Shown: positions 1 through 46,574, counted from the first letter of the stretch. The stretch: 64,000 nt of DNA from Rhodospirillaceae bacterium (GCA_024638465.1 JAHEKF010000008.1:1-64000); one strand, 5' to 3'. Made by a program: numbers and translations. The notes: generated by a model from the letters alone, not told the origin.

Positions 1-1
1 T

Positions 2-721
2 TTTGGCGAGCACGAAAAAAACGCGATCCCGATCGAAGTACACACGATCGTTCAGGAGCCTCTTCCTGTAAAGATCGTTGATATTACAGAATCGATCTGG
101 CCAGGCATGCCGGACGTCGGTGCAGGGGCTTATCGCTCCAACGCCAGCCTGATGCTGCACCTTCTGCTTCATACAGCGGCTGGGATTCGTCAGCGGGCCG
201 TCAGACTGATTCAACTGCACGACATCGCTTTGCTGGCAACGAAACTCGACCTGGATGACTGGCGCTGGATCACTTCAGCGCTTTGCCGTGAGGATTCGCG
301 TTGGTGGCTTTACCCGCCTTTAGCCGTAACGGATCAGTACTTTCCGAATACCATCCCGGCAACCGTAATTCAAGATTCCGGTCGGCTGTGCCCCGTACTA
401 TTGCGATCGGTAGCGCGCCGGTACGAAATTTCCAGAGTCTCCTACTCGAATCCGCGAATTCCTGCATTCCCTGGACTAAGCTGGTCCGGGACACCGATGG
501 AAGCATTTCAATTGGTATCGAGCCGGGTTTTTCCGGGACGCAATGTCCTGGACGAGCTACACGAAGCTACGGGCACGAATCCCCGGCTTCTCAAGCTGCC
601 CTGGTACGGAATATCCCAATCAGAGCGAATCCTTCGATGGGTAACAGGGAGAGCTCCACGCGTTCAGACCATGCTGTCGGTCCATGAAGCGCTGGATGGC
701 ACTATCGAAAACCGACCTTGA
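2..721 (+). CDS. Nucleotidyltransferase family protein, C-terminal part (cut by left edge)
   Basis: The reading frame is open from base 2, so the start lies outside the window; about 239 residues are visible. The segment resembles the C-terminal helical half of the uncharacterised NTP_transf_5 nucleotidyltransferases: a leucine-rich helix with LLLHTA, then the RLIQLHDIALL stretch and a Trp-rich helix. The catalytic nucleotidyltransferase motif would be upstream and is not visible. Family members usually sit in exopolysaccharide or peptide-modification clusters beside HPr-kinase-like proteins, and such a kinase is encoded about 1.2 kb away on the other strand. It ends tail-to-tail with the glycosyltransferase at 772-1875. 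The substrate is unknown and the assignment is moderate. Confidence 0.6.
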   Translation, partial: FGEHEKNAIPIEVHTIVQEPLPVKIVDITESIWPGMPDVGAGAYRSNASLMLHLLLHTAAGIRQRAVRLIQLHDIALLATKLDLDDWRWITSALCREDSRWWLYPPLAVTDQYFPNTIPATVIQDSGRLCPVLLRSVARRYEISRVSYSNPRIPAFPGLSWSGTPMEAFQLVSSRVFPGRNVLDELHEATGTNPRLLKLPWYGISQSERILRWVTGRAPRVQTMLSVHEALDGTIENRP

Positions 722-771: not shown

Positions 772-1875
772 TCAGCCATCGGATAATCGACGATACAGAT
801 CATCGAATAATTGCGCCGTAGAATCTGCATCCTCGCGAACTGCCCGAGCTTGCGCTTCGTTGGCGATGCGATGACGCATCGATTCATTCGCAAGAAGCAC
901 AGTGATTTGACTCGCGAGGGCCGCGAAATCCTGGCAGTCCACGGTCAACGCCGCTGATCCTGCCCACTCCAGAATATGGCCGACGTTGGTCCCGACGCTT
1001 GGAACGCCCGCAACGGCAGCCTCGAGTACCACGACAGGACCCGCTTCGTGTCTCGAGCTGATGACCATTGCGTCAGCCGACTCAACCAGCAGTCGAAGCC
1101 CGGCGCGACCAAGATATCCATGGAAGGTGACGTAGCCAGTCAGGCCGAGTTCTTTCGACATAGCCTCGACGGCACCGTCGGAAACATCTTCTCCGGCGAT
1201 GTCGAGATGAAAGTCGACGCCGCGCTCGACGAGAGAGCGCATGGCTCGAAGCAGCGTTTCCTGATCCTTGACACGATTCAGGCTTGCGATGTGCAGCAAT
1301 CTGGCCTTTTCGGAGGAAGAGCGGGAGCGAGGTGCTTTAACCGGCCACTCATCGAGGTCGACACCGAGCGGGATTCGCTCTGCAGCTCTGCCGAGGTCGG
1401 AAATCCGGTCCAGGATCGGCTTGCTCGCGGCCGTCAACTCGGATGCGGCGGCAATCACGGTGCGGTTCAACAAACGCGCGCGCAAACGGTAGAAACCGCC
1501 GTACTGGATGTCCTTAATCGCGACCAACTCGCCTCCAGCCACGTGCACGACACTGGGTACACGCAGAAGCTTTCCCGCAGCAACCGCGACCGCTCCGCAC
1601 GGGCCCGCCCAGATTGAGTGAAGCACATCGAATCGACCGATCCTGTGCTGACTGACGATGCTGCCGATTGACCGTAACACCCTGAAGGACTGTCCAGAAT
1701 TGTGCACTTCCGCGCCTTCCAGCGACCAGCTCCCCGGGTCTGGCTCCTGATAAAGCGCGAATACGTGAACTTCATGAAGCCTGGCAAGTCTGCGTATCAG
1801 ACTCAGTAACGCCGGGATGATCTTGTGTTCGCCGGAACGATCGACACCGCCAGGAACGACCAAAGCGATCTTCAT
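772..1875 (-). CDS. GT4-type glycosyltransferase
   Basis: This 367-residue GT-B fold protein probably moves a sugar from an activated donor to a cytoplasmic glycan or lipid acceptor. The N-terminus (MKIALVVPGG) starts an acceptor Rossmann domain, and the C-terminal half has RLLHIASLNRVKDQ and the donor-binding E-x7-E motif in HEAGPVVVLEAAVAG. No signal peptide or membrane helix is seen. Its ATG overlaps the stop of the upstream HPr-kinase-like gene by 4 bp (ATGA), so the two are probably co-translated. Donor and acceptor cannot be read from the sequence. A second GT4 enzyme lies two genes upstream, which fits assembly of an oligosaccharide. Confidence 0.85.
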   Translation of the reverse strand: MKIALVVPGGVDRSGEHKIIPALLSLIRRLARLHEVHVFALYQEPDPGSWSLEGAEVHNSGQSFRVLRSIGSIVSQHRIGRFDVLHSIWAGPCGAVAVAAGKLLRVPSVVHVAGGELVAIKDIQYGGFYRLRARLLNRTVIAAASELTAASKPILDRISDLGRAAERIPLGVDLDEWPVKAPRSRSSSEKARLLHIASLNRVKDQETLLRAMRSLVERGVDFHLDIAGEDVSDGAVEAMSKELGLTGYVTFHGYLGRAGLRLLVESADAMVISSRHEAGPVVVLEAAVAGVPSVGTNVGHILEWAGSAALTVDCQDFAALASQITVLLANESMRHRIANEAQARAVREDADSTAQLFDDLYRRLSDG

Positions 1876-2885
1876 TTCGATCCGGACAATCCGGCGAGCA
1901 TCGTCCGCAACTGTTCGACGGCAACGCCCGGTGATTCGGTTCGCCGTAACTCAAAGCAGCGGACAGCCGAGATCTTGCGGCTGAACTCGCTCCACTCCGG
2001 CAGCCCTGCCGCATAGGGCTGCTCACTGCGCAAGCGTGTGATCAGTTCGTCAGTCGCTTCAAGCGGACGCAGCGCGGATGAAGCTTCCGCTATCTTCTCG
2101 CTTAGAAATACGGTGGCGCCCAGCTTCGGTCGCAGAGGCGACTTCCATTGGCAGTGTTCACGATAGTCATACGCGAATTTTTCGACACCGCTGCGTCTAT
2201 GAATCGTCGGCGAATCGCTGACCCGGTCACGAACCGGCCCGGGATCCAGCAGCCCGAGTGCGTCGGGTCGAAGGTGGAGGAAATTCGGCATTCCGAACAC
2301 CGACAGATCCCGCGGGCTGACAAAAACGCTGTCCTCTGACAGAACCTGCAAACCGCCTGAAAGTGCCAGCAGGCAGAGCGTACTTTTACCCGCACCGGTC
2401 GCCCCGACCAGCAGACATCCCGTCTCGCCAAGTCCAACACAGGCACCGTGTAATGGAACCAACGAGAGCGCACGACCAGCGAGCGTCAACACCGCGAACT
2501 CGATCAGCTCATACCTTGCGAGATGCGGGTGATGCAGCATCGCCCGCGACACACTGACAATCGCGCGCCGATTCTCGGGATCGACTATCGCGTAATTGCC
2601 ACTGTCGACAACTCCACAAAGCAGTCCGTCACCGGAACCTGGTGTCGGCGGGGGCGGCTTATTCTGCCAGGACTTCTCGCGGTCATTGAGCGTGAGTTGC
2701 AGGCGGAGGTCTGGCACGGCCCCCTCTGTCGCGAACCTCGGCAGCGAACCGAACGCTTCCACAGCAAGATCGATCAGAACCCGGTCGCTGCTGCGAACGA
2801 CGAGTTCTGCACCTGCGATCTGCAAGCGAACCTCGGAGCCGAGCTCGCGACGCTCGCCAAAAGGATCTTTCGGATCAACGTTCAC
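1872..2885 (-). CDS. HPr kinase-like P-loop protein
   Basis: This 337-residue protein has a central P-loop GATGAGKST and a downstream SEDSVFV segment, as in the C-terminal kinase domain of HPr kinase/phosphorylase. It lacks the classical HprK N-terminal domain, and no PTS genes are visible. Related stand-alone HprK-like proteins occur in exopolysaccharide/exosortase and lasso-peptide clusters together with NTP_transf_5 nucleotidyltransferases; one is present at the left edge. A role phosphorylating a glycan or peptide intermediate is an inference. The likely start is GTG at 2885, 67 bp after the stop of the upstream glycosyltransferase, and the end is coupled (ATGA) to the next glycosyltransferase. 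Confidence 0.72.
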   Translation of the reverse strand: MNVDPKDPFGERRELGSEVRLQIAGAELVVRSSDRVLIDLAVEAFGSLPRFATEGAVPDLRLQLTLNDREKSWQNKPPPPTPGSGDGLLCGVVDSGNYAIVDPENRRAIVSVSRAMLHHPHLARYELIEFAVLTLAGRALSLVPLHGACVGLGETGCLLVGATGAGKSTLCLLALSGGLQVLSEDSVFVSPRDLSVFGMPNFLHLRPDALGLLDPGPVRDRVSDSPTIHRRSGVEKFAYDYREHCQWKSPLRPKLGATVFLSEKIAEASSALRPLEATDELITRLRSEQPYAAGLPEWSEFSRKISAVRCFELRRTESPGVAVEQLRTMLAGLSGSK

Positions 2886-2952
2886 AGCTCGACGATGTCT
2901 CCGCGTAAACCCGCTTCATTTCGGAGCTCGGCGCTTGCGCTACCCTTCAAGC

Positions 2953-4092
2953 TCACAATTGCCCCTCGGCGGCGCGATCGAGTTCAGCCAAACGCGTATA
3001 CACTTCCCTGAAGCGTCGGCCGAGCGCTTTCTCGGACAACTGATCAACGAAGTAGCTCCGCACGCGATTGCGTTCCGCAGCATCGAGAGCCGCGCTGCTC
3101 TCGATTAGCGCCCGCCGCAGATCGTGCGCATCACCGCAATTCCACAGCATACCGACCTTGCCATATCCGGTAAGAGAGCGTGTCGAGGGGATGTCGGTGG
3201 CAACAGGCGTCAGACCAGTCGCGAGCGCTTCAATCAGCGAGAAACTACCTCCTTCGCGGTGGCTTCCGAGGACAAACACATCCGCTGCGCGCATGAGACG
3301 TTCAACTTCGCCATGCGGGACCCGGCCCAGCAGATGAACGCGGTCACGCAAATTCGGATCGGCTTCGATTCGGGTTCTGACAGCCGACAGCAGGTAGACA
3401 GATCCATAGCACATCCACAGCTGCAGGTTCGGCAGATCGGGGATCGTCGCCGCGATTCCGTCCAGGACGGTCAGTGGATCCTTGTTGGCGTTGAGATGAC
3501 CGACGGACAGCACCGCCGGATCCCCGTAAATTCCGGTCTGCTCCCGAGCCACTGATTGTTCTCCCGGCTCGAAGGTACTCGTGGACTCCGGAAGCTCGAA
3601 GATCATTGTGGTGGGCCCGAGTACGCCCAATCGCTTGAACGGCTCGGCCTGATCACGCGCGCAAAATGAAATTCCCGCCGCCGCGGCGCACGCCTGACGC
3701 CAGCGCCTGCGGCGCCAGAGTCGCGGCGGTCTGTCGGCATGATCCTGTAACAGGATCGGCACGTTCGGGAGCAATTGATGCAGCTCGACAACTTCTTGCG
3801 AAAAACCAAGGCCATGTATATGCACAACATCGGGATTTGCAGCGGTTACGAGATCGCGAAAACCGGCGCTTCGCGTCAATGGCCGGCCGATACGCCCGGG
3901 TGAAACAAAATCGTACACTATGCCCGATCGCTCGATATGGCCTGTCATCAAATTCGCCTGAATGACCGAGACTGACGTATCTGCAGCGGAGACGGAACCT
4001 GCTAGTGACGAAAGCGCTGGCCAGTCATCGAGAAGTCTCTCGGGTGACCGTCGCTTCGGATCGACATAGAAACTGATCTGAGTTATGCGCAC
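2953..4092 (-). CDS. GT4-type glycosyltransferase
   Basis: This is a GT-B glycosyltransferase of about 379 residues. The C-terminal donor domain has AVLSVGHLNANKD and the E-x7-E motif in HREGGSFSLIEALATG, followed by TPVATDIPSTRSL. I chose a GTG start at 4092, giving MRITQISFYVDP, because the longer version uses a TTG and would run 29 bp into the upstream radical SAM gene. The SD before the GTG is weak, so the start is uncertain. The gene follows the radical SAM gene by 16 bp. The acceptor is unknown, and nothing points to secretion. Confidence 0.82.
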   Translation of the reverse strand: MRITQISFYVDPKRRSPERLLDDWPALSSLAGSVSAADTSVSVIQANLMTGHIERSGIVYDFVSPGRIGRPLTRSAGFRDLVTAANPDVVHIHGLGFSQEVVELHQLLPNVPILLQDHADRPPRLWRRRRWRQACAAAAGISFCARDQAEPFKRLGVLGPTTMIFELPESTSTFEPGEQSVAREQTGIYGDPAVLSVGHLNANKDPLTVLDGIAATIPDLPNLQLWMCYGSVYLLSAVRTRIEADPNLRDRVHLLGRVPHGEVERLMRAADVFVLGSHREGGSFSLIEALATGLTPVATDIPSTRSLTGYGKVGMLWNCGDAHDLRRALIESSAALDAAERNRVRSYFVDQLSEKALGRRFREVYTRLAELDRAAEGQL

Positions 4093-4108
4093 AGTGGCGG
4101 CATTTCGC

Positions 4109-5617
4109 TCAAATGCTCGAGACCCGCGGATCGACAAGACCGATCAAGCGGTGCGACGCGGTCAATTCCCACGGATGATCGTAATGTCGTCTTTCATACC
4201 GCCAACTCGCGAGTCCGCGTAGCGCCGCCTTGGCCCAGGCCGGCGAACGCGTGTCCTGAACGGTCGGGTATCGGCATCGCAAAACAGTAACGAAGTCCCG
4301 GATTCTCCGTCGCAATCGATCCGTCAACCAGGGCGCATCAGCATGACACGCGTAGTCGACCCACGCTTTCGCGGTCCAGCCCTCCGGGGTCGTCGGAAAT
4401 TGCACCGCTTGACCGTCAATGTCTACGAGGGGCGCAAGGTTGAGTCGATCCGCGCGCGGCACGCTGGACGGTGGTAGCGGCGTGTTGACGTATACGATGA
4501 TCTCGGCGTCCGGATTGACTCGCTTGGTCTGCCGAATGAAGTCGAAGATCTTTTCTGTTTCGCCCTCCGGATCCTCGGGCGGCGCGACCATGAACGAGAG
4601 CTCCGGTATTACCCCATGCTCCCGGCAAAGCTCTGTCACCGCGAGAGTCTGATCCGATCGGGTTCCCTTGCGAATCGATCGCAATAACGAATCATTCGGC
4701 GTTTCGGCGCCGATATACGCCATCCGCAGACGGCTCTTTCGAATCAGCTTCCAGGATTCCGGAGAGAGCTTTAGCAACGCATCCGACCGCGCATAACACC
4801 ACCACGGCAACTCGTGGCGTGCCAACACTTCCAGAATTGGAACCATATCCTCCTCGCGATCGAAAAAATTATGATCGTAAAACTGTATCGAGTCGGCTCC
4901 TATGCGGTTTTTCAGAAAAAGAAGCTCTCGGTCGAGTCGCTCAGCCGGCGGCAGCATCGTCGCTCCCTCGAACATTGCCGCGACACCGCAGAACGTGCAC
5001 CGAAACCGGCAGCCGAGCGCAGCCTGATGTCCGACCGTGCGGTTCCCCAGAAAGGTTTTGACGGCGTACGCTTGCGGGTTCCCCAGTAGTTCATATCGAA
5101 GCGTTGGCGCAATATGGCTTCGCGACAGCGGGCGGCCGGTATTGTGTACGACGGTTTCGTCATGTCGCCAGCTGAGGCCGGCAACCGCTGACAATGACGC
5201 GGGATCATTTGCTCCCAGGCTCGTCAAAAGGCCCTGAAACGTGTCCTCTCCCTGACCGCGAACGACGAAATCCACATAGTCGCTATTCAAGGCGACATCG
5301 GGATAGAGACTCGGGAAATATCCTCCCCAGACGATAGGAAGCCCGGGCGCCGCATCGCGAATGGCCCGGGATACTTCGATCGCTGTTGCCACCTGCGGGC
5401 CGCCCATGACGGTTACGCCGACAGCGGCGAGCGTCTCATCCCGGACCATGCGGAGAGCGGTATCGACCGCAGCACCGTCCATGTTTCCGTCGACCAGTAC
5501 CGACCGGTAGTCCGGTTCGATCGCTGCGGCAATATTCATGATCGACAGCGGAAAGCGTGCGTTACGCTGCGAGGTAATTCGCGGATTGATCAGAAGAACC
5601 TGGCGGGACGGAATCAA
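4109..5617 (-). CDS. B12-binding-type radical SAM enzyme
   Basis: A protein of about 502 residues with an N-terminal cobalamin-binding-like Rossmann domain (VGVTVMGGPQ, IVWGGYFPSLYPD) and a radical SAM core with CRFRCTFC, the C-x3-C-x2-C ligands of the 4Fe-4S cluster. Such enzymes methylate unactivated carbons or rearrange carbon skeletons. No classical DxHxxG base-off B12 motif is visible. I placed the start at TTG 5617, which overlaps the upstream stop (TTGA) and has GGAGA seven bases upstream; the longer frame would swallow much of the upstream gene. It lies in tandem with a paralogous radical SAM gene. The substrate is unknown; the neighbours suggest a glycosylated natural product or lipid. 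Confidence 0.85.
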   Translation of the reverse strand: MIPSRQVLLINPRITSQRNARFPLSIMNIAAAIEPDYRSVLVDGNMDGAAVDTALRMVRDETLAAVGVTVMGGPQVATAIEVSRAIRDAAPGLPIVWGGYFPSLYPDVALNSDYVDFVVRGQGEDTFQGLLTSLGANDPASLSAVAGLSWRHDETVVHNTGRPLSRSHIAPTLRYELLGNPQAYAVKTFLGNRTVGHQAALGCRFRCTFCGVAAMFEGATMLPPAERLDRELLFLKNRIGADSIQFYDHNFFDREEDMVPILEVLARHELPWWCYARSDALLKLSPESWKLIRKSRLRMAYIGAETPNDSLLRSIRKGTRSDQTLAVTELCREHGVIPELSFMVAPPEDPEGETEKIFDFIRQTKRVNPDAEIIVYVNTPLPPSSVPRADRLNLAPLVDIDGQAVQFPTTPEGWTAKAWVDYACHADAPWLTDRLRRRIRDFVTVLRCRYPTVQDTRSPAWAKAALRGLASWRYERRHYDHPWELTASHRLIGLVDPRVSSI

Positions 5618-7035
5618 GAAAGCTTCTCCGCAGGTCGCAGCCGCTGCAGAAGGCGCATCTCTACCGGCCAGCGAAAATCCAGTCGCTCGACCCTGAGTTG
5701 AGCGATTTTTTGTAACCACGCCAATCCATTCGGCCTCTGAAACGCAAAATCCAGAAAGAACTTGTATCTCTCGATGAGCTCGAATTTTTCCGGGGTCACC
5801 CAGGGTCCGGGCAAGCCGGCAACGTAGTCGAACTCCGACCATTCGGCCAGCGAATCGGGCAATTGAAAACCGCTGGCAACCGACTCGTTAACGATCTCGC
5901 TGCCGGGATACGGCTTGAAATAGAAGATCGGTGTCTCGAACTCCGGACTCATTCTCCTGAGCCGTCGTGCGAATCGAATAGTGGCATCCACACTTGCGTC
6001 GCTCTCGTCCGGGAAGCCGACGATGAATGGAAAGATACCGGCGATATCGAGCTCTCGCATCCGTTCTGCGGTATGCAGAATCTTCTCCAGAGTAACGTCT
6101 TTCTTAATGCGTTTAAGCAACTCCGGATCGCCGGACTCGACGCCAACCAGCAGACGCCGCATTCCGGATTCCTTACAAAGCTGCCAGACATCGTCGGGTA
6201 ATCTCTTTCCCTGATCGGCGCGCATCGTAGCCGCCCAGGTGAATTCCATCTCCGAGTCAACAATCGCCCTTGCCATCGCCTCGACACGCGCACGCTTCGT
6301 GAAAAATGTCTCGTCCTGAAAGTTCACATCGTCGAAGCGATACTTCTGCCAGAGTTCCTTGAGCATTCGAACGATCGAAGCCGGTTCCAGCCCGACCCAC
6401 TTTCGTCCGTAGACGAACGGATCGGAACAAAACGCACAGCGGAAATTGCAACCCTGAGACGAAATGTAGTCGAGCTGCCGCTTGCCTTTAAGATCGAAAT
6501 AGCGTTCGACGGGAATGAGGTCGTAGTTGTGCGACCGAAACGCTTCGAGCGGAATCAATGCGCGCGGCGGATTCACGCGAATGCTTCCGTCAGCCTGCTT
6601 GAATGAGCAGCCGCAGCAACCCTCCAGCGACTTATTCGCAACCAGACGGGATACGATTTCGTTGAAGGTCGCTTCGCCCTGCGCCTGAACCGTAACGTCT
6701 ACGCAGTCTTCTTTCAGGCAATCGGATCCGAACATGGACGGATGCCAGCCACCCCATACGATTGGCACATCAGGAAAGGCGGCCTTCGCTGTGCGCGAAA
6801 CCCGCAGGGCATCGGCTATCGGCGCTCCGGTCAGTACCGTGACGCCCAGGCATACCGCACCGTCCAGCGCGTCCGTGACGGCTGATGTCGCGTCCGCTTC
6901 GAGCCTGCCGTCGATGATCACCACTTCATACTTATCCGGATCCAGCTCGGAGCCGATCGCCAACAGTGCCAGCGGCATGGTGAAGAACACCGCATCGGGA
7001 TTGTATAGAACGACTTTTCGACGGTTCGCTGTCAT
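5614..7035 (-). CDS. B12-binding-type radical SAM enzyme
   Basis: A 473-residue protein. Residues 1-170 form a cobalamin-binding-type domain (LGVTVLTGAP, IVWGGWHPSMFG). A radical SAM barrel follows with CNFRCAFC (C-x3-C-x2-C), the GVESGDPELL strand and FIVGFPDE. It is the same architecture as the next gene downstream, so the two may act in series or as alternatives on one substrate. It starts with ATG at 7035, ten bases after the small methyltransferase gene, and its stop overlaps the TTG of the second radical SAM gene. No export signal is seen. The reaction could be C-methylation, but the family is broad and the product is not identifiable. Confidence 0.87.
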   Translation of the reverse strand: MTANRRKVVLYNPDAVFFTMPLALLAIGSELDPDKYEVVIIDGRLEADATSAVTDALDGAVCLGVTVLTGAPIADALRVSRTAKAAFPDVPIVWGGWHPSMFGSDCLKEDCVDVTVQAQGEATFNEIVSRLVANKSLEGCCGCSFKQADGSIRVNPPRALIPLEAFRSHNYDLIPVERYFDLKGKRQLDYISSQGCNFRCAFCSDPFVYGRKWVGLEPASIVRMLKELWQKYRFDDVNFQDETFFTKRARVEAMARAIVDSEMEFTWAATMRADQGKRLPDDVWQLCKESGMRRLLVGVESGDPELLKRIKKDVTLEKILHTAERMRELDIAGIFPFIVGFPDESDASVDATIRFARRLRRMSPEFETPIFYFKPYPGSEIVNESVASGFQLPDSLAEWSEFDYVAGLPGPWVTPEKFELIERYKFFLDFAFQRPNGLAWLQKIAQLRVERLDFRWPVEMRLLQRLRPAEKLS

Positions 7036-7045
7036 CTTGTGTGGT

Positions 7046-7771
7046 TCATTCCTGGGCCGGCACTATTCGCAGTATCGAAAGCGTCTCGTTCAGGTAACGA
7101 CGTCTGGCAAACAAGTCTACCTCGTAGCCGCGAATCGCAAGCTGCTCCTCGAAAGCGGTGCTCGCATCCCCGTAAGAGGACAACATCAATAGCGCGACTC
7201 CGTGAGGGGAAAGATGATCAGCCAACCCACGCGCGAATCTTTCCGCAAGATCCGGGGAACGCCAGGCGGCATCGCGCTCGTCACGCGGCTTTCCGATGAG
7301 GAACGGCGGGTTAAATAACACGAGATCGAAGCGCTCACCCGCGACCGGTGCGAACAAGTCTCCGCATCTGAATTCGATCCGGGCGTTCATCCCGGACATG
7401 AGAGCGTTAATCTGCGCACAACGTATCGCGTTCGGATTGACGTCGGTACCGATGACTCGACCGGCAAGTCGTGACGCGACCAAGGCACAGATGCCCGAAC
7501 CGGTACCCAGGTCGAGAACCGAAGATCCCGCATGAATCACGCGCTCGTCCAGCTGAGAGGAAAAAAATGCGCCCGTTCGCAACAATTTCGGGTTGGCGAC
7601 GCTCGGAAGCACCAGTATCGGCAACCCCCCCACTCGCTCGAGCCGGAAATCGTCGTAGCGGTGGTGCCCCGTTACTCTGTAACCGAGGTTCAGCAGACGG
7701 CCGAGCATCGCGGCAAATCGCCCCGGACGCGATCGCTCGATCAGCGAAACACTTTCGGGCGCATCAAGCAT
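7046..7771 (-). CDS. HemK/RsmC-type SAM methyltransferase
   Basis: This protein of about 241 residues has the SAM-binding motif LDLGTGSG and the catalytic NPPF motif of N-methyltransferases acting on amides or exocyclic amines (HemK, RsmC and N6-adenine types). The start is ATG at 7771 (MLDAPESV); a longer frame exists but would run through the upstream gene. It overlaps the upstream radical SAM gene by 8 bp (ATGCTTGA), an arrangement repeated exactly at the next junction. NPPF argues for transfer to nitrogen, but cluster context rather than a known target defines its role here. Confidence 0.78.
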   Translation of the reverse strand: MLDAPESVSLIERSRPGRFAAMLGRLLNLGYRVTGHHRYDDFRLERVGGLPILVLPSVANPKLLRTGAFFSSQLDERVIHAGSSVLDLGTGSGICALVASRLAGRVIGTDVNPNAIRCAQINALMSGMNARIEFRCGDLFAPVAGERFDLVLFNPPFLIGKPRDERDAAWRSPDLAERFARGLADHLSPHGVALLMLSSYGDASTAFEEQLAIRGYEVDLFARRRYLNETLSILRIVPAQE

Positions 7772-8771
7772 TTCGCACTTCCGGCAGGGCGAAATCTTCA
7801 GCAGTCGTCTCCAACGACTCGCGCCACATCGAACAAACGCAGCGCTCACATTCCGGGCGGCGCCCTTCGCGAATCGCCATGCGCAATGCCTGCATGGACG
7901 TACTGTCGAGCGCAGCCCGCAGTGATGAGGCACGCGGCGCATCGACCGGCCCGGAGATGAAGAAGCACGGCGAAACGGCACCATGGGCGTTGATTACGGC
8001 TGAGAACTCCGGCGCATTGCATTGGACATCGGGAAAATCGCCCTGGCCGCACAACGCAGCGAAGTAGTCACATATATGTCGCAGCTTGGCAGGCGATTCT
8101 GCGATAAAGCGGTTCGAGAACTCGCTCTCAAACCTGTGCTCGAGTTCATCGATAATTTCTCTCAAAGCAACAACGTCGTCGGGGTGGAGCGCCAGGCCGG
8201 TCGCGTAATTGTCCGTTCTGGAAAACGCGTGCGGATTACCGACGTCGACGGCCAAAAACGACACCTGAGTTGCACCCAGCTCCCGTGCCAACGCGACGAA
8301 ATCCGGCAGCTCCGGATAATTAGCCCGTTGCAGCGTGACGCGAATGCTCGTCGGCACACCGAGGTCAACCATCGCACGAATGCCGGAACACACCTTGTCG
8401 AACGCGTTTACCCCTCTTATCCGTTCATAGGTCTCGGCGTTCGTTCCATCGATCGAGACCGTCACCGTCTTGAATCGGGCAGCTACCTGATCCGAGTGCT
8501 TGACAAGGGATAGACCAGACGTGAGCAACCAAAGGTTCAAACCGCTACTTTTGAGCAGATCGGCGATTTCTCGCCACTCGCGGTTGAGCAGCGGCTCGCC
8601 ACCAGAGACAAGCACGTCACGGGTATCGAGGGCGTCCAGTTCGGGAAGCAGCTCACGCACGGCTTCGAGCTTCATGTCGCCGAAACCGGACTTCCAATAG
8701 TCGCAGGTTATACAACGCGAGTTACATCGCTCGCTCAGGTAAAGGGTAACTAGCGGCAACCGCTCAAGCAT
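7764..8771 (-). CDS. Radical SAM enzyme with SPASM-like C-terminal cysteines
   Basis: A 335-residue protein beginning MLERLPLVTLYLSE, with the cluster motif CNSRCITC close to the N-terminus (C-x3-C-x2-C) and the GGEPLLN loop that contacts SAM. The C-terminus carries further cysteines (CNAPEFSAV, SPCFFISG, CERCVC), typical of SPASM/twitch enzymes that hold auxiliary Fe-S clusters. These often modify peptides or process sugars and alcohols. The start at 8771 overlaps the upstream methyltransferase stop by 8 bp. Two cobalamin-type radical SAM genes lie just downstream. The substrate is unknown; a peptide substrate is possible but no precursor peptide was recognised. Confidence 0.84.
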   Translation of the reverse strand: MLERLPLVTLYLSERCNSRCITCDYWKSGFGDMKLEAVRELLPELDALDTRDVLVSGGEPLLNREWREIADLLKSSGLNLWLLTSGLSLVKHSDQVAARFKTVTVSIDGTNAETYERIRGVNAFDKVCSGIRAMVDLGVPTSIRVTLQRANYPELPDFVALARELGATQVSFLAVDVGNPHAFSRTDNYATGLALHPDDVVALREIIDELEHRFESEFSNRFIAESPAKLRHICDYFAALCGQGDFPDVQCNAPEFSAVINAHGAVSPCFFISGPVDAPRASSLRAALDSTSMQALRMAIREGRRPECERCVCSMWRESLETTAEDFALPEVRNA

Positions 8772-9579
8772 TACAGCCTCGCGGTGCTCGACGAGCCTGC
8801 AGAATAAAGTGATCGGCAAGCGTCGCCAGCGGTTCGAATCGGTGCGCCATTCGCTCGAGTCCCGACAGCAATCGGAACGCCCTGGGAGATCGGTTGATCC
8901 AGCCGGCCGCATAGCTCGGCGGAAGAAATACGCCTAATGCGCTGGCACTAACGCCGTCGAAATAGTCACCAAAGGATTGCGCTAAGCCATTCGGCGTCGG
9001 ATAGCGGATGCGGATACCTCTCCACGAGGTCCCGCTCCTCGACAAGCGACGGAAGGCCTTGCGACCGTCGAGCCGCACCAGGAACCAACCCCATTCCCAG
9101 GGGACGTAGCGGCCCATCACGACACAGGTCAGGGGCGCACCCGGTTTCATGATCGATGCCAGATCGAGAGCAAGCTGTTGCATGCTCGATGCGCAGTTGA
9201 AAACACCGAAATTCGAGACCACTCCGTCGAATGATTCACCGTGGAGCCCACTGCCGAGCTCGTCGAGGGGGAGGCGACGAAATTCGATCCGTTCCGCGCA
9301 ACCGGATTTCAGCGCCTTCGCCCGGGCGATCTCCAGCATGCGCTCGGACACGTCCGTAGCGACCACGCGGTATCCACGCTGCGCCAGATGGACAGCGTCT
9401 TCGCCGGTTCCGCAGCCGATCTCCGCGATACGACCGGTCTCCGGAAGACTGTGTTCCAGATGGCGCCATACCTGGTCGCGTAACCATCGCCCGAGCCGCG
9501 TATCAGAGAACGATGCGTCGTAGTCGGCGGCCAATTCGTCAAAGGCAGCGGTGTGCGATCGCAGCGGTTTTGTCGTCAT
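8764..9579 (-). CDS. Class I SAM-dependent methyltransferase
   Basis: This protein of about 271 residues has the Methyltransf_11/25-type motif AEIGCGTGEDAVHLA, followed by VVATDVSERMLEIAR and a motif IV region with FDGVVSNFGVFNC. It starts HTAAFDELAADYDASF, typical of this family's N-terminus. I prefer ATG 9579 over GTG 9588. It is soluble with no targeting signal. Its stop overlaps the start of the SPASM-like radical SAM gene by 8 bp, so the two are probably made together. The acceptor could be a lipid, sugar or small molecule. Confidence 0.82.
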   Translation of the reverse strand: MTTKPLRSHTAAFDELAADYDASFSDTRLGRWLRDQVWRHLEHSLPETGRIAEIGCGTGEDAVHLAQRGYRVVATDVSERMLEIARAKALKSGCAERIEFRRLPLDELGSGLHGESFDGVVSNFGVFNCASSMQQLALDLASIMKPGAPLTCVVMGRYVPWEWGWFLVRLDGRKAFRRLSRSGTSWRGIRIRYPTPNGLAQSFGDYFDGVSASALGVFLPPSYAAGWINRSPRAFRLLSGLERMAHRFEPLATLADHFILQARRAPRGCNA

Positions 9580-9636
9580 TGGTATCACCGCGGTCTGTCC
9601 GGCAACTCATTTGCCGGAGGTTGCGATCCTACAACG

Positions 9637-10491
9637 TCACGGCGCGGGAGGCACGCGCGCCTGGCAGACCGTCAGCGTCTGAATGTGATGAAAATCGCTC
9701 CGGTCGAGCCAGTATTCACCGGAGCCCGGCTCGCAGCAGGCGCGCAGTCTGCGTTTCAGATCGGCGTCCAGGTAGCGGTGGATCCGCTCTCCCCAGAGGC
9801 CCTCGTAAATCGCATGCTGAAAATACGCTCTGTCAACAGCTGTCAGTGGCTGGGTTCGCTCGATCACATAGGTTCTCGACTCGATTCTGTCGAAGCCCGC
9901 GCGGTCCAGAGCCCCGATCAAGCTACGCACGCCGGCAGTCGCTTCGCGGCTCAGGCCGTAGCGCTCTCGGTAGTACTGGTGACAGGCAGACCGCAACGCA
10001 TCGTCGAGATGCGCGTCCCAGGCGAAGAACATCTCCGCCAGAAAACCGCTCTGGGCCAGCACGATTCGCCCATCGTTCCGCAAACATCGCTTCAGCGCGC
10101 GAAGCACGGTTTCAGCGTTTGCAGCGTGATTGACTGAATTGCAGCACCAGATGACGTCAACGGAAGCGTCTCGAATACAAGGGCGTTGCATGTCGGCCTG
10201 AATCAGCGGTAGCGCGTGCAGGAGTCGCGCAGATCGGAGATGCGGAAACGACAGATCAAGCCCACAGACATAGACGTCCTCGGGCACCTGCTCGGCCAGC
10301 AAGGCAGTCGCCAATCCAGTGCCGCAGCCGACGTCCATGATTACGCCGGTCGACGGCAATGGAATGTCGGCGAAGATCTGTTTCAGCTCTGGTTCGATGA
10401 ATCGTGAAAAACGTTCCAGTTTTTCCGCGTAGGATCTCGACGGCGAATCCTGGAGTGGTCGGTCGCCGCGATTTGCTTCAGTTCTCGGCAA
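9637..10491 (-). CDS. Class I SAM-dependent methyltransferase
   Basis: A second family-11-type methyltransferase with IMDVGCGTGLATALLAE, a VCGLDLSFPHL acidic loop and IWCCNSVNHA in the motif IV region. An ATG lies well upstream inside the cytochrome-barrel gene, so I placed the start at TTG 10491, which has AAGGA nine bases upstream; this gives about 284 residues. The start is uncertain. It sits 57 bp upstream of the next methyltransferase and may be the first gene of the biosynthetic operon. The target is unknown. Confidence 0.75.
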   Translation of the reverse strand: MPRTEANRGDRPLQDSPSRSYAEKLERFSRFIEPELKQIFADIPLPSTGVIMDVGCGTGLATALLAEQVPEDVYVCGLDLSFPHLRSARLLHALPLIQADMQRPCIRDASVDVIWCCNSVNHAANAETVLRALKRCLRNDGRIVLAQSGFLAEMFFAWDAHLDDALRSACHQYYRERYGLSREATAGVRSLIGALDRAGFDRIESRTYVIERTQPLTAVDRAYFQHAIYEGLWGERIHRYLDADLKRRLRACCEPGSGEYWLDRSDFHHIQTLTVCQARVPPAP

Positions 10492-10511: not shown

Positions 10512-11636
10512 TCAGAAATAACCGTGGAGTTCCAGGAAGAACGCTTCTCTGTTGGTAGTAGGGAACAGCGGTACGCCGTTGTAAACGCGATAGCCAACAC
10601 GGGTCTGGAAGAGCTGAAAAGGAGAGTACTCCCACACCACGCTATATCGCTCCTCTTCGTCCTCGGCGACGATATCGCTGGGGTCGAGAAACTCGTACGC
10701 GACTTTCAAATTGTGGCCTTTTCTGAACCGCCAATTTCCCTCGACGAGCGTCGCATAAGTTTCCACGTTGCCGCCGCTCGGCAAATCGTCCTGAATAAAG
10801 TCGAGCTCGGCAAGCCACGAAATCGGTCCCGTTCGCCAGCCGGCGAACAGCGCCTGCATTGTCCGGTCGCCGAGAGGATCTTCGTTGACGTTGTAGCTCG
10901 CACCAACCCGCCACCGTGGTCTCACGTAGACCGCCAAGAGACTCGTCTGGTCCTTGCCGGGACTGCTACCGGCACCCGCCGTGCCGTCGCTAAAAGCCGC
11001 TTGCACCGACCAGCGCGGCAGTTCCAGGCCGAACTCGACGCCGTTATCCGGCGTATTGAAGTTGATACCCGAGCGCTGACGAACAAACGTGTTGTCGTCC
11101 TGCAGCCGCAGACCGAAAGGCAGAAAGAACTGGCCCGCCTTGATCGTGTACTTGCCATTGCCGGGCGTCAACAGCAGGAACGCTTCGCGATTGAGCGAAT
11201 CCCCGGGCGCCAGTTGCTGATCGGCATAGATCGTCAGCAGATCGGGCACGGCCTTGATCTCGAGCTGCACGGTCGCCTTCTCTGTCGCCCATTCGGAGGT
11301 GTCGTTCGCCCCGGGGACATCGGTGCTCGTATAGCCGCCTCTGTAGTTCCCGCCGACTCCGAGCCACCGGGCGATTTCACCGTTCCAGGGTTGCGCCTGG
11401 TCGTCCGACAGGATCGTCCGTTCGGAAATTACCGAGCGTGCATAGATCGTTCCGAAAACGTTTCGCTTGCCGCCGCCTGAAGGATTAACGTGGCAACTGT
11501 TGCACTTCAATCCCGATTCCACCGCGAGGTAAGGCTCCGCCCGACCCGGAGTCGTGGTCAGCATAGCGACGATCCCGGCCGCAATCACAGTCACGGCGAG
11601 TGACCATCGCCCATCTTTTAAGATCAGACCTCTCAC
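10512..11636 (-). CDS. Monoheme cytochrome c-porin fusion (outer membrane)
   Basis: A protein of about 374 residues with a hydrophobic signal sequence (AVTVIAAGIVAML, then RAEPYLA). Immediately after it comes one c-type heme motif, CNSCH, in a CNSCHVNPSGGG context. The remaining 300 or so residues form alternating amphipathic strands ending in LELHGYF, as in an outer-membrane beta-barrel. The layout resembles cytochrome-porin fusions such as the Cyc2 iron oxidases, but the heme context is different and I do not assign that function. The likely start is GTG 11636, overlapping the upstream stop (GTGA). The upstream gene encodes a diheme lipoprotein, so the pair probably handles electrons at the cell envelope. 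Confidence 0.72.
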   Translation of the reverse strand: MRGLILKDGRWSLAVTVIAAGIVAMLTTTPGRAEPYLAVESGLKCNSCHVNPSGGGKRNVFGTIYARSVISERTILSDDQAQPWNGEIARWLGVGGNYRGGYTSTDVPGANDTSEWATEKATVQLEIKAVPDLLTIYADQQLAPGDSLNREAFLLLTPGNGKYTIKAGQFFLPFGLRLQDDNTFVRQRSGINFNTPDNGVEFGLELPRWSVQAAFSDGTAGAGSSPGKDQTSLLAVYVRPRWRVGASYNVNEDPLGDRTMQALFAGWRTGPISWLAELDFIQDDLPSGGNVETYATLVEGNWRFRKGHNLKVAYEFLDPSDIVAEDEEERYSVVWEYSPFQLFQTRVGYRVYNGVPLFPTTNREAFFLELHGYF

Positions 11637-12823
11637 ATCGCCGCTCCATCCGAAATCCACTGACGAATCACGTCGATCGTTGCCTGATCCAACGCGGGAC
11701 CACCCAGCGGCATTTGCCCGCCCACTGAAGCCGTGCCCTCGAGTTTTCTAATCAGGTAGCTGTCGTCCGGATTTCCAGGCTCCACCCGCTCCACCGCGCC
11801 ATTCTGGAGACTCGAGACAGAGACTAACGACATGAAACTCAGCGACAAGCTCGAGAGATCCATGCCTGAGGGAAGATCGGCCGCGTCGTTCGAGGTTGGA
11901 CCGGAATGGCATCCGGCACAAACCGGTGTAAACACATTGTCCTGTATCGACAGCAGTGTAGGCTGGACGCCGGCTACCGAGAAATCGGCTACAAAATTGC
12001 CTCCTTCCGTGCCGTCGCCCGACGGGAACGTTCCCGAGAACTCGCCATCGAGCGCATTGGCGTCAAGATCCTGAATAACGGCCGGTCCCGTTCCTGTCAG
12101 CGTTACCCGGTAGTCATCCTCAACCGGTGCCGTACCCGACATATCGAAGACCGCCGTGCGCGGATTGACCAATGGCACATCGACGGAGTCGGGAAAGACC
12201 GAAACCTCGTTACCATCCGTAAACGTGCCATCTCCGCCGCTTCGAACTACCAGAAATGTCGTTTCGTCCACCGACGCCGCGTTGAGCTCACGATCGAAAA
12301 TCGCCGTTACCGTCATCGGCAGCATCGGCACCGTGGAATCGGGTAGCGGATCGAGACTCGTCACGCGCAAAGGATCCTGTGGAGCGGGCGTGGGGCTGCG
12401 CGGAGCTCCACTCGCGATCCACTGTCGCACGACATCGATCTCGGCTTGCGCGAGAGGCGGAGCCCCTAGCGGCATCTGGCCGCCAACTGACGCGCTGCCA
12501 TCGAGCTTGCGCATCAGATAACTCGAGTCCGGATTACCCGGTGCCACTCGAAGAAGGCCCGATTGCTGAACGCTCGCACGCCCCACGAGCAGGTCATAGC
12601 TGTTTCCCGCATCGAGACGAAGACCGAGAGGCGCAGTTGCGCCGATATGGCAATTACTGCATACAGGCGTGAAGATATTCGCCTGGATCGAGTCGAAGTC
12701 CGACACCAGAACGCCCGATCCCGCGATAAGCGGGCCATCGCCCGATCCACAGCCGGTAATCGATGCAATCGCGATGACCGCGAGGTAGCGCTTTCGAAAA
12801 GCCGGGAGGTACGAGGCGCGCAT
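11633..12823 (-). CDS. Diheme lipoprotein with duplicated cytochrome domains around an Ig-like domain
   Basis: This 396-residue protein has a lipobox-like SITGC near residue 25. Two c-type heme domains follow, CSNCH (55-59) and CAGCH (302-306), each with the same tail: a PGNPDxSYL segment, then GGQMPLG (probable Met ligand) and a final helix ending RQWI. The copies are very similar, so the domain was duplicated. Between them, residues 155-290 look like a bacterial Ig-like domain (TAIFDRELNAASVDETTF, YRVTLTG). The protein is probably anchored in the outer membrane with hemes facing the periplasm. It is coupled to the downstream cytochrome-porin gene. The role is inferred electron transfer; donor and acceptor are unknown. 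Confidence 0.75.
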   Translation of the reverse strand: MRASYLPAFRKRYLAVIAIASITGCGSGDGPLIAGSGVLVSDFDSIQANIFTPVCSNCHIGATAPLGLRLDAGNSYDLLVGRASVQQSGLLRVAPGNPDSSYLMRKLDGSASVGGQMPLGAPPLAQAEIDVVRQWIASGAPRSPTPAPQDPLRVTSLDPLPDSTVPMLPMTVTAIFDRELNAASVDETTFLVVRSGGDGTFTDGNEVSVFPDSVDVPLVNPRTAVFDMSGTAPVEDDYRVTLTGTGPAVIQDLDANALDGEFSGTFPSGDGTEGGNFVADFSVAGVQPTLLSIQDNVFTPVCAGCHSGPTSNDAADLPSGMDLSSLSLSFMSLVSVSSLQNGAVERVEPGNPDDSYLIRKLEGTASVGGQMPLGGPALDQATIDVIRQWISDGAAM

Positions 12824-22761: not shown

Positions 22762-23775
22762 GTGAAAGATCCGCTGCGCCAGTACTTCGTCGCTTCGTTG
22801 CCTGCCGCCTTGGCGGGCGCCTGGATCCTTGGCGATCGCCTTCCACCCGAGTCTGCTGAAACCGCTGCCATCTGGCAACTCGCCCTGCTCGATCGACTGC
22901 AGATCCCTCTCGGGACACTCCCGAACTCTCTCGCGAACCTGGCGCTCGGAGCGAGCTTTCTGATACCGCTGCTGCTCACGGTTGTCCTGGTGAGCCGAAT
23001 CTGGGCCGGGATCTTCGCGCGCGTCCGCAACCGTCCCCTGGACCCGGCCTGGTTCTTGTCCGCCTGGCTCTACTCATTACTAATACCAGCCACATTACCG
23101 CTGCATTACGCCGCGATCGGCTACAGCTTCGGCGCGATCTTCGGCTGCTATGTCTTCGGCGGGACCGGGCGTTATATCGTCAATCCCGCGTTGCTCGGAG
23201 TCGCCTTCCTCTCGATCTCGTATCCCGACCTCCTTGCGCACGACCGCTACCTGCCCGGATCGGACGCCTTGTCTTCGTGGGCTTTTGTCGCGACCGAAGG
23301 AGTCGAGACAGCCGTATCCACCGGGGTTAGTTGGGTCGCGCTGTTTTTCGGTAGCGAGACGGGCGTCCTCGGTACCACCTCGGCGCTCGCCTCGCTGCTC
23401 GGAGCGGTCTACCTGATCGCCCGTAAGATCGCTTCCATAGGTATCGTAGCCGGCGCGCTGGTCGCAATTCTCATAACCGGCGAATTGATCAGCGAGATCC
23501 CCTGGCAGTGGCACCTGGCGCTGGGAAATTTCGCCTTCATCCTGGCCTTCATCGCGACGGACCCGACTACGAGGCCGACTACGACTGGCGGCTGCTGGGC
23601 CTATGGCGCGCTATTCGGTGTCCTGATCATTGTCCTGCGCATGGCCGATCCCAATAACCCGGAAGCCAGCGTACCCGCCCTGATGCTCGCGAGTCTGTGT
23701 GTTCCGCTGATCGATTACATCGCCGACGCGGCAGCACCGCGCTCAAAGGCGCCCGAGGCTATCGGTCGTGACTGA
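22762..23775 (+). CDS. nqrB: NqrB/RnfD-family membrane subunit
   Basis: A 337-residue integral membrane protein with about ten helices. It has the NqrB/RnfD signatures FGGTG (132-136), NPAL (141-144) and GTTSALASLLG (204-214). The last is the region in which a Thr carries covalent FMN in this family, so T205 or T206 is the candidate. The length is closer to RnfD than to the usual NqrB of over 400 residues; the long N-terminal extension is missing. I used GTG 22762 since no in-frame ATG lies upstream. The gene opens an operon in NQR order but with no nqrA before it. Its stop overlaps nqrC by 8 bp. Confidence 0.86.
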   Translation: MKDPLRQYFVASLPAALAGAWILGDRLPPESAETAAIWQLALLDRLQIPLGTLPNSLANLALGASFLIPLLLTVVLVSRIWAGIFARVRNRPLDPAWFLSAWLYSLLIPATLPLHYAAIGYSFGAIFGCYVFGGTGRYIVNPALLGVAFLSISYPDLLAHDRYLPGSDALSSWAFVATEGVETAVSTGVSWVALFFGSETGVLGTTSALASLLGAVYLIARKIASIGIVAGALVAILITGELISEIPWQWHLALGNFAFILAFIATDPTTRPTTTGGCWAYGALFGVLIIVLRMADPNNPEASVPALMLASLCVPLIDYIADAAAPRSKAPEAIGRD

Positions 23776-24541
23776 GCGCGAATCCGTTGCCAGAACGCTC
23801 GGCGTTGCCGCCATCGTGGCGGTTTTCTGCTCACTAATGGTTTCATTGGCGGTGCTCTGGCTTCGCCCGATCCAGCTCGCCTATCTGTCTATAGAGCGAA
23901 ACCGTGCCGTCCTGGAGGCATCGGGCCTGATCGAGCCCGCAACCGAGCTCACCGAGCAACAGATCGTCGATCGCTTCCTCGGTCTCGATACCCGAATCGT
24001 GGATCTCGATAGCGGCACGTTCTCCGATGCGGTTTCGACGACCAGCTTCGACTTCAGGGCAGCGATCAATGATCCTGACCTGACCAGACCGATTCAGGAC
24101 GAATTGGACATTGCAAACCTCGGCCGCCGCCCTGTCTACTTGCCCGCTTATCTCCTGCGTAATGGTTCCACCATCGAGCAAATCGTGCTGCCAATCTATG
24201 GTCAGGGAATGTGGGCGACGATTCACGGCTTCATCAGCCTGAGAGCAGACTTCGCGACGGTTGAAGGAGTTGCGTTCTATGAACATGGAGAGACGCCGGG
24301 CATAGGAGACCGGTTCCTCAACCCCGAGTGGCTTGCTCAGTGGCGAGGACAACCTGCGTACGATGAGAATGAACGGGTCGCTTTCCGAATCGGCGCCGAC
24401 GGAGGGCGCCCTGCGGGGATCGACGCAATCACTGGTGCGACTGTCACGACATCGGCTATCGAAGATCTGGTTCGATACTGGCTCGGCGATGACGGTTTCG
24501 GTCCGTTCCTGGCCTACATGCGACGGGAGGCACCGCAATGA
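23768..24541 (+). CDS. nqrC: NqrC/RnfG-family periplasmic flavin subunit
   Basis: A 257-residue protein with one N-terminal membrane helix (about 10-32) and a periplasmic FMN-binding domain. Residues 174-180 read GETPGIG, and 218-228 contain ITGATVTTSAI, where T225 is the expected attachment site for phosphodiester-linked FMN; this matches the SGAT consensus apart from Thr for Ser. FMN attachment needs ApbE, which is not in this window. The GTG start overlaps the nqrB stop by 8 bp. The flavin faces the periplasm, the side where the neighbouring decaheme cytochrome would be. Confidence 0.9.
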   Translation: MTERESVARTLGVAAIVAVFCSLMVSLAVLWLRPIQLAYLSIERNRAVLEASGLIEPATELTEQQIVDRFLGLDTRIVDLDSGTFSDAVSTTSFDFRAAINDPDLTRPIQDELDIANLGRRPVYLPAYLLRNGSTIEQIVLPIYGQGMWATIHGFISLRADFATVEGVAFYEHGETPGIGDRFLNPEWLAQWRGQPAYDENERVAFRIGADGGRPAGIDAITGATVTTSAIEDLVRYWLGDDGFGPFLAYMRREAPQ

Positions 24542-25215
24542 TCCAACGCCTCATCGCAACCTCGCGTAACACGCTGCTCGCGCCGTTGCTCGACAACAAC
24601 CCGATAACGCTTCAGGTGCTGGGCCTGTGCTCCGCTCTCGCCGTAACCAGTTCCCTGCGGCCGGCCATCTTCATGAGTGTAGCGGTCATTTCCGTGCTCG
24701 TCTTCGCCAACGTTACCGTGAGCCTGCTCCGCCATGTGATTCCGCAGAGCATCAGGTTGATCATCGAAGTCACGTTGATCGCCTCCGCCGTCATTGTCGT
24801 CGACGAAGTGCTGAAGGCATTCGTTCCCGATGTAGCGGCAATCCTGTCCGTGTTCGTCGGACTCATCATCACGAACTGTATCGTTCTGGCACGCGTTGAA
24901 AGTTTCGCGATGCATCATGGCGTTTGGGCGAGCCTCCTGGATGCGCTGGGAAACGGTCTCGGCTACGCCTGGATCCTGTTGCTGGTCGGAGCTATCCGCG
25001 AGCTTCTCGGCGCGGGATCGCTGCTCGGGCAAGAGATTCTGCCGCTCGCTGAAAGTGGCGGCTGGTTTGAGCCGAACCAGCTGATGCTACTCACGCCGAG
25101 CGCGTTCTTTCTGCTGGCATTGCTCGTCTGGACGATTCGCTCGCTGCGTCCGGTGCAGCGGTCTCAGTCTGATCAGATACGAAGCGACAATCCTCCCTCC
25201 GGCGCCGCGCCATGA
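24538..25215 (+). CDS. nqrD: NqrD/RnfE-family membrane subunit
   Basis: A 225-residue, six-helix membrane protein. It has N-terminal [16 protein letters not shown], central [19 protein letters not shown] and [18 protein letters not shown]. The conserved Cys residues in LGLCSALAV and TNCIV are those that, with NqrE, hold the intramembrane iron centre. It overlaps nqrC and nqrE by 4 bp each. A short polar tail ([15 protein letters not shown]) extends past the usual end. Confidence 0.93.
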
Positions 25216-25823
25216 CTGGCGATCTGGTCATCATCGCGTTCCGCGCGATCTTCATTGAGAATCTGGCGCTGAACTTCCTGCTCGGTGTCTGCACATACAT
25301 CGCCGTCTCTCAGCGCGTCGCGACCGCGCTCGGCCTCGGAATGGCCGTGACGGTAGTACAGACGATTACTGTCCCGGTCAACAATCTGATCTACCGAAAC
25401 CTGCTCGAGCCGGAAGCGCTTCGATGGGCGGGTGTCGTAGGCCTGGACCTTTCGTTTCTGCGATTCATTACCTTCATCGGTGTCATCGCTGCGGGTGTCC
25501 AGATACTCGAACTGACACTCGATCGCTACTTTCCACGCCTTCAGCATTCGCTCGGCGTCTATCTGCCACTCCTGACCGTCAACTGCGCCATCCTCGGCGG
25601 GTCTTTGTTCATGGTGCAGCGCGATTACAGCTTTTCGGAAAGTGTGGCGTACGGGTTTGGAAGCGGCGCCGGGTGGGCTCTCGCAATCGTGCTGTTCGCA
25701 ACTATCAGGGAACGAATCGACGAGAGCGAGGTTCCCGAAGGTCTGCGCGGACTCGGTCTCGCATTCGTCGTCACCGGAATTCTGGCTCTGGGCTTCGCAG
25801 GGCTCAGAGGTCTCGAGTTCTAG
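25212..25823 (+). CDS. nqrE: NqrE/RnfA-family membrane subunit
   Basis: A 203-residue, six-helix protein that matches NqrE closely: [65 protein letters not shown] and a C-terminal [14 protein letters not shown]. The Cys residues in LGVCT and VNCAI are the partners of those in NqrD for the iron centre. The VQ-x-LE and VNCAI wording favours NqrE over RnfA. ATG 25212 overlaps the nqrD stop. Confidence 0.94.
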
Positions 25824-25837
25824 AGCGCAGGCCTGAC

Positions 25838-46107: not shown

Positions 46108-46574
46108 TGCTCGCCGTTCCTCGGCTTGAACACGGTGCCGACTTTGGCATCGAACTCGCCGCTCTCGAGCCCCCGGGTAGATTCCGCATCGATCGCATGA
46201 ACCAGGAGCTCGCCCGGCCTGGCTTCGACGGTGACCGTACCGGGAGTCAGCGTTATCGAGTTCCCGAGGACGACGATCTCGCCGTCGCTCTTGAGGTCCG
46301 TCTTGTGTTGTACGAGTCTCGGAGCGATAGGAAGCCTGGGGTTGAGGATCAACCAACTGACATGGATTCCGCTCTTCACGACACGCACGAGCAGCCAGGG
46401 CAAATAGCCCAGCGCTGCCGGCAGCGAGACGCGTCGCTGCATTGGCGGGCCGGGGGGCGTCAGCCACGCTACAACGCTGGCGACGACAGCGCCGAGCGCG
46501 ACATGAGCGGGATGAAGCGTAGCCGACAGGACCAACCAGAGGGCAAAAAGCGCGATAGCAGCCAAAAATCTCAT
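46104..46574 (-). CDS. mnhE: MrpE/MnhE-type subunit
   Basis: A 156-residue protein with two N-terminal helices, a short cytoplasmic loop and the conserved C-terminal LGNSITLTPGTVTVEARPGELLVHAID. This is the MrpE family, the only Mrp subunit without a complex I relative. It follows dabA with a 4-bp overlap (ATGA), which ties the Mrp-like subunits to the DabA protein. Confidence 0.93.
   Translation of the reverse strand: MRFLAAIALFALWLVLSATLHPAHVALGAVVASVVAWLTPPGPPMQRRVSLPAALGYLPWLLVRVVKSGIHVSWLILNPRLPIAPRLVQHKTDLKSDGEIVVLGNSITLTPGTVTVEARPGELLVHAIDAESTRGLESGEFDAKVGTVFKPRNGEQ

Follow-up and report, generated by a model that had tools for sequence, protein, structure and literature searches.

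The C-methylations and ring changes catalysed by cobalamin-radical SAM enzymes are chemically very demanding, and the greater part of the group is uncharacterized (PMC8992657). The solved representatives include the class B methylases MgmA, TsrM, TokK, CysS and OxsB, as well as AprD4, the radical SAM diol dehydratase of the apramycin pathway. A different kind of tailoring is known from lasso peptides: in pseudomycoidin biosynthesis a PsmK-type kinase phosphorylates a serine residue and PsmN places a hexose on the phosphate, either directly or via a nucleotidylated intermediate (PMC8498205, PMC9266682). Radical SAM/SPASM enzymes are exemplified by BlsE of the blasticidin pathway and by ScmE and ScmF of the SynChlorMet cassette, and the bacillithiol (BshA/BshB) and mycothiol (MshA/MshB) pathways pair a GT4 glycosyltransferase with a PIG-L deacetylase. 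The gene cluster described here has features in common with each of these systems; however, it corresponds to no known type of antibiotic or peptide pathway among those that could be tested, and no cluster of like make-up was found in a literature search that reached few subscription papers or preprints.

The cluster lies at one end of the window, the 64,000-nucleotide stretch of DNA from an uncultured Rhodospirillaceae bacterium that was analysed (GCA_024638465.1, JAHEKF010000008.1:1-64000). The first base of the window coincides with an end of contig C109, one of the 153 contigs of a 3.26-Mb draft genome. Functional assignments were made at the superfamily level throughout, and none of the cluster genes of the window reached an NCBIfam equivalog cut-off. 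The reading frames and Pfam domains (two GT4, two B12-binding plus Radical_SAM, one Radical_SAM plus SPASM and three class I methyltransferase genes) agree with the genes named in a preliminary description, which are found at the coordinates given there, on the minus strand (Table 1). The tight packing reported there also stands, with neighbouring genes sharing a few bases: R1 and R2 overlap in the tetranucleotide TTGA, the R2 start codon lying at 5617, MTc/SPASM and SPASM/MTb overlap by about eight bases each, and GT4a/HprK by four.

Table 1. Genes of the cluster and its immediate neighbours in the window
Gene	Assignment	Coordinates	Strand	Support and remarks
NTP5	NTP_transf_5-like, C-terminal part	2..721	+	N-terminal part on contig C60, L003:19003-19698
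GT4a	GT4 glycosyltransferase	772..1875	-	Pfam; 50-56% identity across phyla
HprK	HprK-like kinase	1872..2885	-	Weak Pfam score, motifs, AlphaFold model, fold match
GT4b	GT4 glycosyltransferase	2953..4137	-	Pfam; alternative start GTG 4092
R2	B12-binding radical SAM enzyme	4109..5617	-	Pfam; TTG start overlaps R1 stop
R1	B12-binding radical SAM enzyme	5614..7035	-	Pfam, fold; 52-70% identity, all phyla found
MTc	Class I methyltransferase	7046..7771	-	Pfam; invariant NPPF motif (planar-nitrogen type)
SPASM	SPASM radical SAM enzyme	7764..8771	-	Pfam, structure-chain comparison
MTb	Class I methyltransferase	8764..9588	-	Pfam
MTa	Class I methyltransferase	9637..10491	-	Pfam
PorC	Probable outer-membrane barrel, N-terminal CxxCH	10512..11660	-	Frequent neighbour, membership uncertain
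cytC	c-type cytochrome, paired with PorC	11633..12823	-	Membership uncertain

The left flank was recovered from contig C60, the last 172 bases of which (C60:38026-38197) match window positions 1-172 at 98%; the remaining differences of about 2% resemble those that strain variation would leave where an assembly breaks, and this overlap is the sole tie between the flank and the window. The NTP5 reading frame is continuous across the join and gives a protein of 414 amino acids, most homologues having 404-432, so that the NTP_transf_5 gene of the preliminary description is the C-terminal part of a gene that starts on C60. The C60 part passes the PF14907 cut-off (73.9 versus 31.2 bits), as do two homologues in relatives (86 and 99 bits). 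Directly upstream of NTP5 and in the same direction, C60 contributes two further B12-radical SAM genes, L1 and L2, and the full set therefore consists of a plus-strand run, L1-L2-NTP5, and a minus-strand run, (cytC-PorC)-MTa-MTb-SPASM-MTc-R1-R2-GT4b-HprK-GT4a, which converge. The three radical SAM enzymes counted previously are all present in the window, but the count becomes five once the left flank is added, with four B12-radical SAM enzymes and one SPASM enzyme alongside three methyltransferases, two GT4 enzymes, the HprK-like kinase and the NTP_transf_5 protein. Further left of L1 lie a tRNA-Phe gene, a LysR regulator and housekeeping-type genes. No core synthase was recognized in the left flank, where one, or a precursor, had been expected to the left of base 1, and no scaffold-forming enzyme was identified among the cluster genes; nor does the flank consist of plain O-antigen genes, the arrangement that would have counted against the preliminary interpretation. 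A tRNA gene adjoins the L1 end in two loci (Phe at L003:15704-15779 and Leu at L010:20267-20351), a further tRNA-Leu gene lies near L1 in L070, and this position could be an insertion point.

The distribution of the cluster was examined with short peptide patterns in 84,980 genomes, each representing a different species. Relatives of R1 were recovered at 26 loci, a lower bound since the first step of the scan requires exact peptide matches. These loci belong to Gammaproteobacteria (including Steroidobacteraceae), one Sphingomonas isolate, Gemmatimonadota, Acidobacteriota, Planctomycetota and a Fimbriimonadaceae metagenome-assembled genome, with one fragment from Methylomirabilota; the cluster is rare and sporadic in at least five bacterial phyla. 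R1 was not found in any of 57 genomes from its host's genus, family or order, nor in 397 further Pseudomonadota genomes, and its absence from relatives combined with its presence in distant phyla points to horizontal spread.

Twenty-three other genomes, from several phyla, contain all or some of the gene set, so that its arrangement is not due to chance. Fetched stretches of sequence were read, with genes in relatives called by a purpose-made scoring of open reading frames rather than a standard gene finder, and start positions may be off. L1, R1, R2, HprK and SPASM are almost always present across genomes, within 20-25 kb of sequence in most proteobacterial ones, and L2 is variable; the genes that travel together are L1, R1, R2, HprK, NTP5, GT4 and mostly SPASM. 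Pairwise-distance correlations, uncorrected for shared ancestry, are mostly 0.8-0.97 among L1, R1, SPASM, MTc, HprK and NTP5 and 0.65-0.87 for R2. In Gemmatimonadota, Acidobacteriota and a planctomycete, HprK-like and NTP5-like genes adjoin L1 or R2 (profile searches, with low scores of 34-105 bits), and of this pair the HprK-like gene alone was recovered in Sphingomonas by the same searches. In Sphingomonas sp. JC676 the genes are divided over three large contigs (L014, L069 and L100), in the groups R1, L2 with MTb, and amidohydrolase-R2-MTf-L1-HprK-like, and SPASM was not found; the pathway can therefore be dispersed or was rearranged in this isolate. Accessory genes in relatives encode an ABC exporter, GT2 enzymes, sulfotransferases, deacetylases, GNAT, an O-acyltransferase, GFO/IDH and a COG0402-type amidohydrolase, whereas no exporter, deacetylase or sulfotransferase gene adjoins the cluster in the window.

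The cytC and PorC genes overlap, and PorC carries the N-terminal heme motif AEPYLAxxxGxKCxxCHVNPxGGG. In seven genomes the pair lies within the cluster or next to it, but it also occurs without the cluster in the window's own family (54-59% identity); it was therefore rejected as part of the core and kept as a frequent neighbour only. In four related genomes, at loci L016, L018, L030 and L071, genes for cytochrome c maturation (CcmB and others, with CcmF in some) directly adjoin SPASM on its left. Elsewhere, the window encodes a DabA inorganic-carbon transporter subunit (46571-49435, 868 bits) and an NqrB/RnfD-type membrane protein followed by a 2Fe-2S flavin oxidoreductase (22762-27061), probably part of an Nqr/Rnf-like operon.

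The CxxxCxxC [4Fe-4S] motif is conserved in all four B12-radical SAM families and is invariant in R1. R1, R2 and L2 exceed the cut-off for the N-terminal B12-binding domain (PF02310), whereas L1 falls slightly under it (30.8 versus 32.1 bits). Fold comparison of whole proteins covered R1: its structural model (pLDDT 86) matches MgmA, TsrM, AprD4, OxsB, TokK and CysS, with E values of 6e-17 to 5e-18 for MgmA, TsrM and OxsB. The modelled fold agrees with solved enzymes of this type and so gives good support to the identity of R1 as a cobalamin-radical SAM enzyme, but not to any particular reaction; cobalamin binding and methyl transfer are putative functions of R1, R2, L1 and L2. R1 shares with the class B methylases the two-domain fold, the B12-binding domain and the CxxxCxxC motif; however, it is about 20% identical to them or less, and here four paralogues occur in one cluster. 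AprD4 is the best solved sequence match to R1 as well as a close fold match, but at just 48 bits, and the B12-binding domain of R1 exceeds the Pfam cut-off.

The HprK-like protein scores below family level in sequence (19 versus 33 bits for Pfam and 19 versus 240 bits for TIGR00679), but its AlphaFold model (pLDDT 82) matches the PEPCK/HprK kinase fold (Foldseek, E = 3.5e-9), and its P-loop GxxGxGKST and Glu-Asp (ED) motifs are conserved, which bears out the earlier assignment. The remark that lasso-peptide loci are known to carry a HprK and nucleotidyltransferase pair has a sound precedent in the literature: PsmK/PsmN of the pseudomycoidin and paeninodin type likewise bring together a HprK-like kinase and a nucleotidyltransferase-type protein (PMC8498205, PMC9266682). 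In contrast to those loci, no lasso precursor or cyclase was found in the present cluster, and PsmN and NTP5 are likened by protein type and not by sequence. The solved chain nearest to SPASM is BlsE, a match restricted to the common radical SAM core; the radical SAM/SPASM architecture is shared with BlsE, ScmF and ScmE, but the scores (59, 81 and 68 bits, respectively, each against 400) lie far under the family cut-offs, and the ScmE/ScmF equivalogs of the SynChlorMet cassette were thus not found. The nearest solved relatives of GT4a are of the BshA type, with MshA also among the matches. Gemmatimonadota loci pair GT4a with a PIG-L deacetylase and GNAT, as in bacillithiol and mycothiol biosynthesis; however, the scores are under the cut-offs, no cysteine ligase gene was recognized and PIG-L does not adjoin the window cluster.

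MTc carries an invariant NPPF motif, which marks methylation of planar nitrogen (HemK and N6AMT1 type). Seven genomes instead contain an amidohydrolase of the cytosine/guanine deaminase type (COG0402) with conserved metal-site residues, usually together with the methyltransferase MTd, and MTc was not found in the fetched loci of these seven. MTc occurs in the 13 other informative genomes, and in none do the two genes occur together. Mapped on the L1 tree, the two states are exchanged six times, and well-supported branches force at least five of these changes. This mutual exclusion with repeated switching most simply suggests one amine-bearing position with two alternative fates, in which the amine would be either N-methylated by MTc or deaminated and O-methylated by the amidohydrolase and MTd.

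The cluster is real, conserved and rare, and its product is most likely a glycosylated, multiply methylated small molecule. On balance, we regard it as probable, if by no means assured, that the locus represents a biosynthetic gene cluster, cryptic and spread horizontally, whose product is a sugar-bearing, multiply C-methylated compound of neither ribosomal nor polyketide origin. Direct support comes from the gene content, packing, co-inheritance, motifs, R1 and HprK folds and MTc/amidohydrolase exclusion, and from these we infer the scaffold and every reaction of the pathway. The scaffold would be an amine-bearing molecule, probably with an sp2 or amide-type nitrogen, drawn from primary metabolism. 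The pairs L1/L2 and R1/R2 may C-methylate or rearrange it, the SPASM enzyme may add one more radical change and MTc would N-methylate the planar nitrogen; in other genomes the amidohydrolase, usually with MTd, would take the place of MTc, so that the amine would first be removed and an O-methyl group then introduced. GT4a and GT4b would attach hexose or hexosamine units; related loci also encode PIG-L or polysaccharide deacetylases, GNAT, sulfotransferases and O-acyltransferases. The HprK-like kinase would phosphorylate a hydroxyl group and NTP5 would place a sugar or nucleotidyl group on the phosphate in the manner of PsmK/PsmN, and the ABC exporter encoded in relatives would export the product. 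The heavily modified product that had been proposed is supported. More tentatively, and with the chances somewhat against it, the locus may define a new natural-product class: a small glycosylated, phospho-linked scaffold processed by four distinct cobalamin-radical SAM enzymes and a SPASM enzyme, with a repeatedly exchanged switch between N-methyl and deaminated/O-methyl forms.

A locus for a glycan or glycolipid of the cell surface that contains unusual C-methylated sugars, with export of the PglK/HepA/MsbA type, could account for the GT4, GT2, PMT_2, AcylT3-SGNH O-acyltransferase, polysaccharide deacetylase and sulfotransferase genes of relatives, and the single-polypeptide ABC protein found there is nearest to the HepA, PglK and MsbA models. 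However, no polymerase, Wzx flippase, initiating phosphoglycosyltransferase or nucleotide-sugar genes were recognized among the window and left-flank cluster genes scanned, the window holds just two GT4 genes, and MTc and the amidohydrolase belong to families that act on planar nitrogen and not on sugar amines; this explanation is considered unlikely.

A ribosomally synthesized peptide of the lasso, sactipeptide or proteusin kind, with its precursor elsewhere in the genome, would have HprK phosphorylating serine, NTP5 adding a sugar, SPASM forming cross-links and the B12 enzymes C-methylating residues. Such an origin would fit the documented tailoring role of HprK and nucleotidyltransferase pairs (PMC8498205, PMC9266682), the frequency of SPASM and B12-radical SAM enzymes among peptide maturases, the resemblance of MTc to glutamine methyltransferases and the single-polypeptide exporter, but relatives add sugar-type tailoring enzymes, and searches for the peptide machinery argue against it. 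Among small open reading frames in the intergenic space across the loci no conserved precursor was found, the candidates being low-complexity, antisense or coding-strand artefacts, and the gaps between cluster genes in the window are too short to hold one. A PqqD-type RRE protein was clustered in none of 24 genomes; asparagine-synthetase-type cyclases gave matches in every genome, again with none of the 24 in the cluster. A lasso/RRE cluster was accordingly rejected, and of the sugar or peptide scaffold suggested in the preliminary description the glycosylated product is supported while the peptide loses support. We therefore consider a peptide product improbable.

A nucleoside-type product would be a special case of the favoured small-molecule reading, in which SPASM acts like BlsE and the amidohydrolase deaminates a nucleobase at the same exocyclic amine that MTc methylates. 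Among solved structures SPASM comes closest to BlsE, the amidohydrolase, whose type is that of cytosine/guanine deaminases, alternates with the NPPF-type MTc, and the nucleotide-acting OxsB is among the structure matches of both R1 and L2. The BlsE match, however, covers the generic radical SAM core, and no gene for a nucleoside hydrolase or nucleobase glycosyl transfer was recognized; this special case is considered unlikely. An aminoglycoside-like pseudo-oligosaccharide on inositol or aminocyclitol is very improbable, even with AprD4 and GenN heading the solved relatives of R1 and of MTc, respectively, and with GT4 and PIG-L together in Gemmatimonadota: the GenN match shrank to 77 residues of the generic SAM fold in the profile search, GenN has FNSP where all MTc proteins have FNPPF, and inositol-1-phosphate synthase is not conserved (seven of 24 genomes, and absent from the window's own).

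A conserved cluster with four cobalamin-radical SAM enzymes, present in at least five phyla and missing from nearly all other genomes, offers a ready-made test bed for this enzyme group. The exchange of MTc for the amidohydrolase leads to a prediction about the scaffold that can be tested directly. Furthermore, the occurrence of HprK and NTP_transf_5 proteins outside a lasso cluster suggests that phosphate-linked modification is used beyond lasso peptides.
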